Assembly: GCF_001855565.1 (NCBI RefSeq)
Contig: NZ_MKCR01000013.1
Coordinates: 1-64,000, forward strand
Length of the DNA: 64,000 nt
Origin: Chromobacterium amazonense
GTDB taxonomy: Bacteria > Pseudomonadota > Gammaproteobacteria > Burkholderiales > Chromobacteriaceae
Direction of reading: 5' to 3'
The notes beneath the pieces were generated by a model. That model was given only the letters and a program-made list of their open reading frames with translations, searched no databases and had not been told where the DNA came from. Every line of letters begins with the position of its first letter. The stretch's first letter is position 1. The position numbers and the translations under genes were made by a program. Positions 49,724-53,506 of the stretch are shown here, piece by piece.

Positions 49724-49862
49724 GGGCATTCTCCTTGTTATGTGCGCTTTGCTTTCCCTGTTTAGGATAAGGGCGAAAGATGACAGTTCCAGTGCAGACG
49801 TATCAGTTATCTGACAGGAAATATTAATTTCTGTTTCATTTTGGTGCCATGTCATGAATCTT

Positions 49863-49879
49863 TGCACCATTCAGGTGCT
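49863..49879. promoter_or_regulatory. NtrC binding site (enhancer)
   Basis: TGCACCATTCAGGTGCT matches the NtrC consensus TGCACCA-N3-TGGTGCA at 12 of 14 defined positions, with perfect GCACC/GGTGC arms. Its centre lies 95 bases upstream of the predicted sigma-54 start. A further GGTGCC half site is at 49843-49848. Confidence 0.75.
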
Positions 49880-49939
49880 TGTTTGTCGTGAGATGGCGTG
49901 ATGCGTCCGTCAAAACCGCGATTTTGAGCATGCAAAAGC

Positions 49940-49955
49940 TGGCACGCTGTTTGCT
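49940..49955 (+). promoter_or_regulatory. Sigma-54 promoter
   Basis: TGGCACG-N4-TTGCT is an exact match to the RpoN consensus TGGCACG-N4-TTGCW, with GG (49941-49942) and GC (49953-49954) ten bases apart. Transcription should start near 49966. No protein-coding gene lies downstream on this strand for over 1 kb. Confidence 0.82.
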
Positions 49956-49965
49956 AGGTATTGGG

Positions 49966-50088
49966 CAAGCTAGTGAGCAGGACCGCAAGGTCCGCGCGCC
50001 GGTCTGCAAAGGGGAGGATGAGAGCGGCAAAGCCGCCATTGGACGGGGTTGTCGAAGAGGTAAGCTTCGACAACCCCGATTCATTTTC
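49966..50088 (+). ncRNA. Candidate NtrC/sigma-54-dependent small RNA
   Basis: About 120 nt from the predicted sigma-54 start to just past a strong hairpin. Stem 1 GGACC-GCAA-GGTCC (49980-49993) has a GNRA tetraloop, and can alternatively pair with CGGTC downstream. A purine-rich single-stranded stretch AAAGGGGAGGATGAG follows (50008-50022). Stem 2 is GCGGC-AAA-GCCGC (50024-50036). Stem 3 is a perfect 13-base stem with a seven-base loop (50045-50077), followed by ATTCATTTTC. No plausible ORF: ATG 50018 runs antisense into the isochorismatase gene. It resembles the arrangement of nitrogen-regulated RNAs such as NrsZ in Pseudomonas; no sequence homology is claimed. Confidence 0.6.
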
Positions 50089-50638
50089 AGGGCTGCTCGC
50101 CCACCAGATAGCGTTGGCTCATCTGCTTGAAATGCTCGCTGCCGGATTGTTCCAGCAGTTCGAACAGCACCATTTCCCGGCTGACGATCACGGCGCCGGC
50201 GGCGCGCATCCGGCCAACCGCCAGCTCGATGTCGGACGGTTTTCGGCTGGAGACGGCATCGGCCACCACGAACACTTGCTTGCCGATAGCCAGCAACTGC
50301 AACACCGTCTGCAGCACGCAAACATGGGCTTCCATGCCGCATACGATGATCTGCTGCCTTTCCATCAGTGTGGGCGGCAGGCACTCTGCCGCCACGCAGG
50401 AAAAGTGCAGCTTATCCACTACCTGCGCTTGCGGCGCGGCTTCGCGCAGCGTCGCCAGCGTGCCGCCCAGGCCGCGCGGGTATTGCTCGGAAAACACGAT
50501 GGGCAGACCGTGGTCGCGCGCCACGGCAATCAGCCAGCGGCTGCGCGCCAATAGTCCGTCCGCATCGTGCACCGCCGGCAGCAGCTTGTCCTGGATGTCC
50601 ACCACCAGCAGGCCGGCGTTCTGTTTTTGCATCAGCAT
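50087..50638 (-). CDS. Isochorismatase-family cysteine hydrolase (YcaC-like)
   Basis: A 183-residue single-domain hydrolase. The catalytic triad pattern is visible: D15 in LLVVDIQDKLL, a lysine in VVDKLHFSC and the nucleophile cysteine in CGMEAHVCVLQT. The family includes nicotinamidase, biuret and ureidoacrylate hydrolases and YcaC proteins of unknown substrate; the early Q and the GMEAHVC string fit the YcaC/isochorismatase-like group. TGGAG ahead of ATG 50638 supports the start. It ends beside the terminator hairpin of the sigma-54 unit. Confidence 0.85.
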   Translation of the reverse strand: MLMQKQNAGLLVVDIQDKLLPAVHDADGLLARSRWLIAVARDHGLPIVFSEQYPRGLGGTLATLREAAPQAQVVDKLHFSCVAAECLPPTLMERQQIIVCGMEAHVCVLQTVLQLLAIGKQVFVVADAVSSRKPSDIELAVGRMRAAGAVIVSREMVLFELLEQSGSEHFKQMSQRYLVGEQP

Positions 50639-51046: not shown

Positions 51047-51111
51047 GTCGAGCTCCTGGGGGGAAATGAGCCCTTAGTATCGCGCTGGCGCGAATGGCCT
51101 GCTTTAAATAT

Positions 51112-51978: not shown

Positions 51979-52503
51979 ATGTCCCAAGCCCATTCCTATT
52001 CCATCCGCGCCAGCGAGCCTTCCGACGCGGCCGCCATCCACCGCATCAAGACCCAGCCCGGCGTCTACCCCGGCACCTTGCAGCTGCCTTACCAGCCGCT
52101 ATCCGCCACGGAAAAGCAGCTATTGGAACAGCCGGCGCATGTGCATGCGCTGGTTGCCTGCAACGAGGCGGGCGACGTGGTGGGCTGGGGCGGCCTGATC
52201 GGCAACGATCGGGCGCGCACCCGTCACGCCGCCAGCCTGTTCATGCTGGTGGACCAGGACTGGCAGGGCAGGGGCGTGGGCTCGGCCCTGATGCGGGCGG
52301 TGCTGGATCTGGCCGACAACTGGCTGGGGCTGATCCGCATCGAGCTGAAAGTGGTGCATGACAACGCGCCCGCCATCGCGCTGTACGAAAAATTCGGCTT
52401 CGAGTACGAAGGGAGGCTCAAGCGCGAAACGCTGCGCGCCGGCAAGCTGGAGGACGTGCTGGCGATGTCGCGGCTGCACTGGCCGAGGAGGGCGGAATCA
52501 TGA
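51979..52503 (+). CDS. GNAT acetyltransferase, YhhY/AaaT-like (copy 1)
   Basis: A 174-residue acetyltransferase. RASEPSDAAAIHRIKTQPGVY at the N-terminus, the acetyl-CoA loop DWQGRGVGSALM, then LDLADNWLGLIRIELKV and DNAPAIALYEKFGFEYEGRLK resemble E. coli YhhY (AaaT), which acetylates L-amino acids. The ATG has AGGAGA six bases upstream. Its stop overlaps the next gene by four bases. First of three tandem paralogues. Confidence 0.87.
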   Translation: MSQAHSYSIRASEPSDAAAIHRIKTQPGVYPGTLQLPYQPLSATEKQLLEQPAHVHALVACNEAGDVVGWGGLIGNDRARTRHAASLFMLVDQDWQGRGVGSALMRAVLDLADNWLGLIRIELKVVHDNAPAIALYEKFGFEYEGRLKRETLRAGKLEDVLAMSRLHWPRRAES

Positions 52504-53006
52504 ATGGCATCACCATACGTCATGCCGAAGTGGAAGATGCCGAGGCGATCCATGCAATGATGAGCGATGTCCGCACCTTCGGCACCATGCTGGGTTTGCC
52601 CTTTCCCTGTTTGCACGCTCGGCGGCAGCGCATGGCCAAGCGCGATGCGAGCCGCGTCGAATTGCTGGCGGTATCGGCGACGGGCGAATTGGCTGGCTCC
52701 GTTATGCTGTCGCCCCATGACAAGCCCAGGCTGGCGGGCGCGGCGGAGCTGGGCATAGGCGTGGCGGCAAACTGGCAGGGACAAGGCATAGGCAAGCTGC
52801 TGATGCAAGAGGCGATAGCGCTGGCTGATAACTGGCTGGGTTTGCGCCGCATCGAACTGACGGTGTTCGCCGACAACGCGCGCGCACAGGCATTGTACCG
52901 CCGCTTTGGCTTCGAACCTGAAGCCAGGCTGCGTGCCTACGCCCTGCGAGACGGTGCCTATCACGACGTGCTGGCGATGGCGCGGTTGTGGGAGGGCGGT
53001 TTATGA
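52500..53006 (+). CDS. GNAT acetyltransferase, YhhY/AaaT-like (copy 2)
   Basis: A 168-residue paralogue of the preceding gene. It keeps NWQGQGIGKLLMQEAIALADNWLGLRRIEL (in part) and DNARAQALYRRFGFEPEARLRA, while the N-terminal half differs, so the substrate is probably different. Overlaps copy 1 and copy 3 by four bases each (ATGA). A tandem duplication with divergence is the simplest origin. Confidence 0.85.
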   Translation: MNGITIRHAEVEDAEAIHAMMSDVRTFGTMLGLPFPCLHARRQRMAKRDASRVELLAVSATGELAGSVMLSPHDKPRLAGAAELGIGVAANWQGQGIGKLLMQEAIALADNWLGLRRIELTVFADNARAQALYRRFGFEPEARLRAYALRDGAYHDVLAMARLWEGGL

Positions 53007-53506
53007 GCGACTATCGAATTCGCCATGCCGAGCTGGACGACGCGCCCGCTTTGCGCGAGCTGATGGCGGACGCCAGCGTGGTGCGCAACACGCTGCAGAT
53101 GCCGCACCCCTCGCTGAGCCATTGGCAGAAGAACATTCAGCGCCTGCTGGGCGAGGGCCGTTATCAGTTGGTATGCGTGGATGCGGCCGGCAAGCTGTTG
53201 GGCCATGGCGGCTTGTGGCGTCTGGAGGGGACGCGGCAAAGCCATGGCGCTGGCTTGGGCATTGCGGTGCGCCGGGAATGGCAAGGCAAGGGCGTAGGCA
53301 GCGCCTTGATGGCGGCGATGCTGGATTTGGCTGACAACTGGCTGGGCCTGCAGCGCATCGAGCTGGGCGTGTATCCGGACAACGCCGCCGCCATCGCGCT
53401 GTATCGCAAGTTCGGCTTCGAGACCGAGGCCAGGCTGCGAGCCCATTCGCTGCGCGAGGGCGAGTATTGGGACACGTTGCTGATGGCGAGAGTGAGCCAT
53501 GCTTGA
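53003..53506 (+). CDS. GNAT acetyltransferase, YhhY/AaaT-like (copy 3)
   Basis: A 167-residue third paralogue: EWQGKGVGSALMAAMLDLADNWLGLQRIELGV (in part) and DNAAAIALYRKFGFETEARLRAHSLREGEYWD closely follow copies 1 and 2. ATG 53003 is used because it overlaps the stop of copy 2; an upstream in-frame ATG (52988) also exists. Its last eight bases overlap the phosphoesterase gene. Confidence 0.85.
   Translation: MSDYRIRHAELDDAPALRELMADASVVRNTLQMPHPSLSHWQKNIQRLLGEGRYQLVCVDAAGKLLGHGGLWRLEGTRQSHGAGLGIAVRREWQGKGVGSALMAAMLDLADNWLGLQRIELGVYPDNAAAIALYRKFGFETEARLRAHSLREGEYWDTLLMARVSHA

Follow-up and report, generated by a model that had tools for sequence, protein, structure and literature searches.

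Organization of the locus

The window analyzed here, a 64,000-nucleotide stretch of Chromobacterium amazonense DNA (contig NZ_MKCR01000013.1), carries between two minus-strand genes a candidate gene for a small RNA (sRNA) under the predicted control of NtrC and sigma-54. The segment opens with a predicted NtrC enhancer box, TGCACCATTCAGGTGCT (49863..49879), which matches 11 of the 12 positions of TGCACC-N5-GGTGCA and has GCACCATTCAGGTGC (49864-49878) as its palindromic core. The center of the box lies 95 bases before the predicted transcript start, the distance given for an NtrC-like palindrome in a preliminary description of the segment. Direct reading of the sequence reveals a second NtrC half-site, TGGTGC (49842..49847, plus strand), 22 bases upstream of the main box, and this half-site recurs at 21-22 bases in 12 of 12 loci compared (L001-L012). 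The sigma-54 promoter TGGCACGCTGTTTGCT (49940..49955, plus strand) begins 76 bases after the box start and is an exact match to the -24/-12 form TGGCACG-N4-TTGCT, as had been claimed. The start of the transcript is placed 12 bases past the -12 GC of this promoter, at about 49966.

The predicted sRNA of about 120 nt (49966..50087, plus strand) is delineated by its fold, by two covariance models (R1 and R2) and by the lack of a conserved reading frame. On the same strand it comprises a hairpin P1 (49970..50002), recognized by pairing in relatives with covariation and including a GCAA-capped inner stem read from the sequence, GGACC-GCAA-GGTCC (49980..49993); a purine-rich linker CAAAGGGGAGGATGAGA (50007..50023), conserved across genera and a candidate interaction site; a short hairpin P2, GCGGC-AAA-GCCGC (50024..50036), evident from the sequence and from alignments; and a terminator hairpin P3 followed by ATTCATTTTC (50044..50078). 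All four structural elements named in the preliminary description (a GNRA-capped stem, a purine-rich stretch, a GCGGC/GCCGC stem and a terminal hairpin) are present, the last with 14 pairs when the outer C-G is counted. The T-run ATTCATTTTC 3′ of P3 is imperfect, and the corresponding run is richer in T in one of the other genera sampled (g5).

The flanking genes, both on the minus strand and outside the RNA, encode a DUF2322 protein (PF10084; 49394..49723), divergent from it, and a convergent isochorismatase-family protein (PF00857; 50087..50638). In line with the absence of a plus-strand protein gene for more than 1 kb, asserted earlier, the next plus-strand gene of a recognized family is of the AraC type and starts at 51094. 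The open reading frames in between are on the plus strand largely antisense to the isochorismatase gene (for example 49961-50554, with a TTG start), and no reading frame is conserved through the RNA in 21 homologs. Upstream of the divergent DUF2322 gene, a block of approximately AGGATAAGGGC...GATGACAGTTC (window 49760-49800) has by eye a similar counterpart at the same place in L003-L012 and is possibly part of the DUF2322 promoter. Farther along the window, three GNAT acetyltransferase genes (PF00583) lie in a row on the plus strand (51979-53506) and are apparently tandem paralogs.

Structure and covariation of the predicted RNA

The transcript folds 4.7 standard deviations better than its dinucleotide shuffles (z -4.7), none of 200 shuffles equaling it. 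Pairing is also seen among relatives. In an alignment of 26 sequences (A5), which was fitted to model R1 and leans towards it, 97.9% of cells pair and 17 of 31 pairs change on both sides, a number reached by 0 of 500 shuffles; shifting the partner by 1-3 columns reduces pairing to 27-48%. A MAFFT alignment of the core, not fitted to a model, gives both-side changes in 12 of 19 pairs, again with 0 of 500 shuffles doing as well.

Most of the covariation resides in P3 and in the inner stem of P1. Both-side changes are found in 6 of 7 pairs of the inner P1 helix, where many cells are gaps, and in 11 of 14 pairs of P3. P2 is nearly invariant, without change across the 26 rows of A5 and with one pair turned from G-C to A-U in five g2/g5 rows of another alignment (A4). 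The GNRA loop is kept in 9 of 10 near relatives (alignment A2, the own sequence counted) and is not kept in the other genera folded. The most conserved form of the linker in genera g1, g6, g7 and g10 is CAAAGGRGA or near it, and in g2 and g5 it reads AGRGGRGAAC or similar.

Distribution in the Chromobacteriaceae

The family was sampled with 61 genomes from 10 genera, that of C. amazonense included. A DNA query matched 19 of the 61, and 18 of these matches represent the real element, the nearest sampled relative (G003) being 97% identical over the segment. The remaining match, 38 bases in genus g3 (L017), was dropped, as it consists of the sigma-54 promoter alone before another gene; this promoter has the same form, and the start of the gene downstream reads by eye like that of a secreted protein.

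Model R1, built from 10 sequences of the genus, found the element in clades and genera beyond its training set. Model R2, which describes the core (linker, short hairpin and terminator) and was built from 17 sequences, scores above 55 bits in 45 of the 61 genomes and 6 of the 10 genera, the 17 training sequences being among these. The next-best matches in the family reach at most 45 bits, and some of these align chiefly to the terminator portion; the many matches at or below this score were taken as noise. Genera g3, g4, g8 and g9 give no R2 match above 40 bits. Searches over more than 40 genomes ran with stricter filters, under which weak matches can be lost. In a sample of 399 genomes from the order, the strong R2 matches are 12 genomes of the family, and four matches outside it (28.1-29.4 bits) were dismissed as noise; in a sample of 369 genomes from the class, the own genome alone matches at E values up to 0.001. 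A plasmid search with the segment gave no match.

A pattern scan of genome contigs returned 35 stretches, of which 19 carry both the short hairpin P2 and the promoter. All 19 are from Chromobacteriaceae (Chromobacterium, Aquitalea, Gulbenkiania or Paludibacterium), and 18 of them have an exact NtrC box; the other 16 stretches are without short hairpin, promoter and box. The preliminary description would have been refuted by a lack of conservation of the promoter or stems in close relatives, and this check did not refute it: promoter, NtrC box, hairpins and terminator are kept in six genera, where pairs covary and spacings vary.

Weak R2 matches are numerous in G023, G022, G031, G036, G075, G027, G019 and G028 (genera g2, g5, g6 and g10), and some of them fall mainly on the terminator portion of the model, as if those genomes reused a terminator sequence of the GGTTGGCCGAAG type. 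The Chromobacterium terminator motif TTGTCGAAG...CTTCGACAA is not reused in this manner, occurring at this locus only, in 10 of 19 genomes.

NtrC boxes in the genome and the predicted link to nitrogen control

The pattern GCACY-N5-RGTGC occurs at 37 places in the 4.0-Mb genome, compared with 3 for a reversed control pattern, and the exact promoter TGGCACN5TTGCT occurs four times, the sRNA locus among them. Three of the 37 boxes have a promoter of the form TGGCAY-N5-YTGC within 200 bp, counted on either side and in either orientation: those of the sRNA, of glnA and of glnK-amtB. At the glnA locus (L194) the box start precedes the promoter start by 119 bases and a glutamine synthetase follows, and at glnK-amtB (L204) the interval is 111 bases and a P-II protein and an ammonium transporter follow, all identified with Pfam. 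Judged by sequence, the sRNA box is of the same type as the glnA and glnK-amtB boxes, and the predicted RNA has the box and promoter logic of these two operons; its own promoter, box and structure are conserved. These counts, together with the fold, bear out the earlier judgment that such a combination of elements is hard to explain by chance.

A perfect NtrC box, GCACCAACATGGTGC, also stands at position 1501 of locus L195, before a PAS/histidine kinase gene, presumably ntrB, directly upstream of ntrC. No sigma-54 promoter lies within 200 bp of this box, as expected for autoregulation.

NtrC itself scores above its curated cut-off in at least 59 of the 61 family genomes. Among the 19 genomes with RNA and ntrC on one contig, the distance between the two is 23-40 kb in 16 and larger in three; in the own genome they are on different contigs.

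Two arrangements of the control region

Control regions were read at 43 of the 45 strong loci, those of G028 and G077 being left out. A sigma-54 promoter is present in 43 of 43, in L055 by a looser form alone, and an exact GCAC-N7-GTGC box is found within 420 bases before P2 in 39 of 43, at varying spacings. In genera g1, g6, g7 and g10 the exact box precedes the promoter, at 25 of their 29 loci. All 14 loci of g2 and g5 (L055 and L057 in g2; L056, L058-L067 and L069 in g5) have it downstream of the promoter and ahead of the core, starting 106-119 bases after the promoter start and inside the presumed transcript. In the loci read by eye, no second sigma-54 promoter was seen nearer the core. 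In the g5 loci read in this way a hairpin resembling a terminator separates promoter and core, and these loci therefore may make one short and one long RNA. Two g2 loci have by eye a second linker, AAAGGRGAGG, near the 5′ end.

A few other systems are known to have enhancers downstream of their sigma-54 promoters, and the two promoter and enhancer arrangements found here offer a natural experiment on them. An extended reading, rather unlikely as a whole, would make the sRNA the first member of a family whose RNAs serve a very small core regulon of NtrC (glnA, glnK-amtB and the RNA itself) as its RNA arm. In g2 and g5, on this reading, the NtrC box has shifted to about 100 bp past the sigma-54 promoter, so that every polymerase producing the RNA would traverse the enhancer by which it was recruited, and the internal enhancer would act as a built-in self-limiting nitrogen switch.

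Proposed function

The segment is very probably the gene for a stand-alone regulatory sRNA that depends on NtrC and sigma-54 and acts as the RNA arm of the nitrogen response, as its conservation and the box type of glnA and glnK-amtB suggest; the sRNA proposed in the preliminary description thereby gains support. From these features we infer both transcription of the RNA and its control by nitrogen. When nitrogen is short, phosphorylated NtrC would occupy the main box (49863-49879) together with the half-site at 49842, thereby activating the sigma-54 promoter at 49940-49955. RNA polymerase would then make an RNA of about 120 nt ending at the hairpin at 50044-50078, folded in the order hairpin, purine-rich linker, short GC hairpin and terminator. 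The linker, of the AAAGGRGA type, would most likely pair with short pyrimidine-rich sites in target mRNAs, the RNA serving alongside glnA and glnK-amtB as the post-transcriptional arm of the response to nitrogen shortage. If the RNA is real, the chances that it works through base pairing of the linker are about even.

Targets were sought as two exact 11-base complements of the linker over 19 genomes. The search returned 57 rows, 21 of which are by position the RNA gene itself, and the 36 non-self matches (23 + 13 for the two patterns) compare with 33 + 8 for reversed controls. The flanks of 33 of these 36 sites were compared, and L165 was viewed separately. One site pair with shared flanks (L183/L185, position 1501; G000:C31:5294), from the own genome and a sister species, has the complement CCCCTTTGCAG in the first codons of an open frame starting ATGACCGCCGACG and is a weak target lead. 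In the other (L179/L186), from two Chromobacterium genomes, CCCCTTTGCAG stands at position 1501 of the loci, on their minus strand, where it follows AT-rich sequence and immediately precedes a GC hairpin with a long T-run; this is possibly the end of another small RNA able to pair with the sRNA.

Several observations weigh against an sRNA of this kind. Shared flanks were found in the site pairs L183/L185 and L179/L186 only, so that the search yielded no genus-wide target site, although shorter or interrupted pairing may still occur. The linker is often partly paired in full-length folds, and the weak terminator T-run makes Hfq binding somewhat doubtful. Four of the 43 loci have degenerate boxes, with 11, 9, 11 and 9 of 12 positions in L038, L045, L050 and L053, respectively; a box of at least 9 of 12 arises in 192 of 1000 shuffles, and one of at least 11 of 12 in 2 of 1000. 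Genera g3, g4, g8 and g9 have NtrC yet give no strong RNA match, and G032 carries the RNA with a partial ntrC match (profile 1-240) among the matches listed. Pointing the other way, RNA and NtrC are jointly absent from G010: alone among the 19 genus members it lacks the RNA, and its best match among those listed is a weaker NtrC-like protein below the cut-off. This joint absence is a single case.

Alternative explanations

Known CsrA-sequestering RNAs repeat the GGA motif, and an RNA driven by NtrC and sigma-54 could likewise bind a protein, the GGA-containing linker holding CsrA/RsmA so that nitrogen starvation relieves Csr control. Each of the 41 distinct homologs scanned has a GGA triplet in its linker, and in Chromobacterium the linker includes GAGGATG, which is similar to the CsrA consensus. 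The linker has one or two GGA motifs rather than a multiplied array, they are often predicted to be closed, and the sequence around them differs between genera, which makes this explanation quite unlikely. The CsrA/RsmA idea of the preliminary description, which assumed GGA motifs in open parts, accordingly finds no backing, and its suggestion of ribosome-site mimicry fares no better: 12 of 12 linkers form at least seven pairs with the anti-Shine-Dalgarno (anti-SD) sequence, but shuffled linkers equal them in 3-57% of trials, so that the pairing does not clearly exceed what shuffled sequence achieves. CsrA capture and anti-SD pairing are both possible and unsupported.

The RNA could also be a distant member of the P11/NfiR family of Pseudomonas (RF00625), which is highly improbable. 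NfiR, a homolog of P11 (NfiR/P11, Pseudomonas stutzeri/aeruginosa), is described as an NtrC-dependent noncoding RNA with a predicted sigma-54 site (PMC6606865), and the RF00625 model matches the segment over its full length. The match is weak, however (13.3 bits, E 0.6, against a gathering score of 70 bits), and a search of the own genome with RF00625 does not pick out the RNA, its locus being absent from the six matches with E values up to 10. In the same account NfiR is 54 nt long and starts 29 bp after the predicted sigma-54 site (PMC6606865), in contrast to the approximately 120 nt of the Chromobacteriaceae RNA. Homology to NfiR/P11 is not supported by these sequence comparisons.

It is similarly improbable that the RNA serves as mRNA for a small protein with its start at the linker, whose AAAGGRGA resembles an SD sequence and, in 8 of the 10 Chromobacterium sequences nearest to this one, is directly followed by ATG (MRAA...). 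This ATG touches the SD-like sequence and is missing in L005, L007 and 11 other homologs, and the frames shift by single-base indels and vary in length.

Least credible is that the element only terminates the convergent isochorismatase gene, forming its 3′ end, and that the promoter is fortuitous. This gene does end at 50087, right by the hairpin, and adjoins the RNA in 38 of 43 loci. The RNA, its promoter and mostly the box nevertheless persist in the five loci where the gene was not found within about 1.5 kb on either side (L008, L009, L045, L047 and L050). In addition, conservation of the upstream hairpin, promoter and box follows the plus-strand register, and no T-run follows the hairpin on the minus strand.

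Relation to known regulatory RNAs and significance

An sRNA dependent on NtrC and sigma-54 would join a small group, since to our knowledge few bacterial sRNAs are driven directly by this pair. Qrr, CrcZ and GlmY are also transcribed from sigma-54 promoters with enhancer-binding activators, namely LuxO, CbrB and GlrR, which respond to other signals. A close parallel is NrsZ of Pseudomonas aeruginosa, described as a stand-alone sRNA whose activation under nitrogen limitation depends on NtrB/NtrC and sigma-54 (PMC8395346). The Chromobacteriaceae RNA would likewise be stand-alone, with predicted NtrC and sigma-54 control. By description, NrsZ is about 226 nt long, processed and encoded directly beside ntrC, whereas the RNA found here is about 120 nt and located away from ntrC. 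GlnZ of Enterobacteriaceae is described as an RNA arm of the NtrC regulon that represses sucA (PMC9731577); unlike it, the Chromobacteriaceae RNA has a predicted promoter of its own.

Scanned against Rfam, the window, the segment and eight relatives gave no match above threshold on the element, the sole match above gathering in the window being a tRNA elsewhere, and the open-access literature has no such RNA for Chromobacteriaceae among the matches listed. The best reading is that of a new and apparently undescribed RNA family of a known kind, which would work like NrsZ or NfiR, differs from NrsZ as described and includes an unusual variant with its enhancer downstream.

A covariance model is at hand for the family, the predicted start site is clear, and there are species in which it can be tested. 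Because it is conserved in six genera and its control is common with that of two central nitrogen-assimilation operons, glnA and glnK-amtB, the RNA may well be a main post-transcriptional output of nitrogen starvation in these bacteria.
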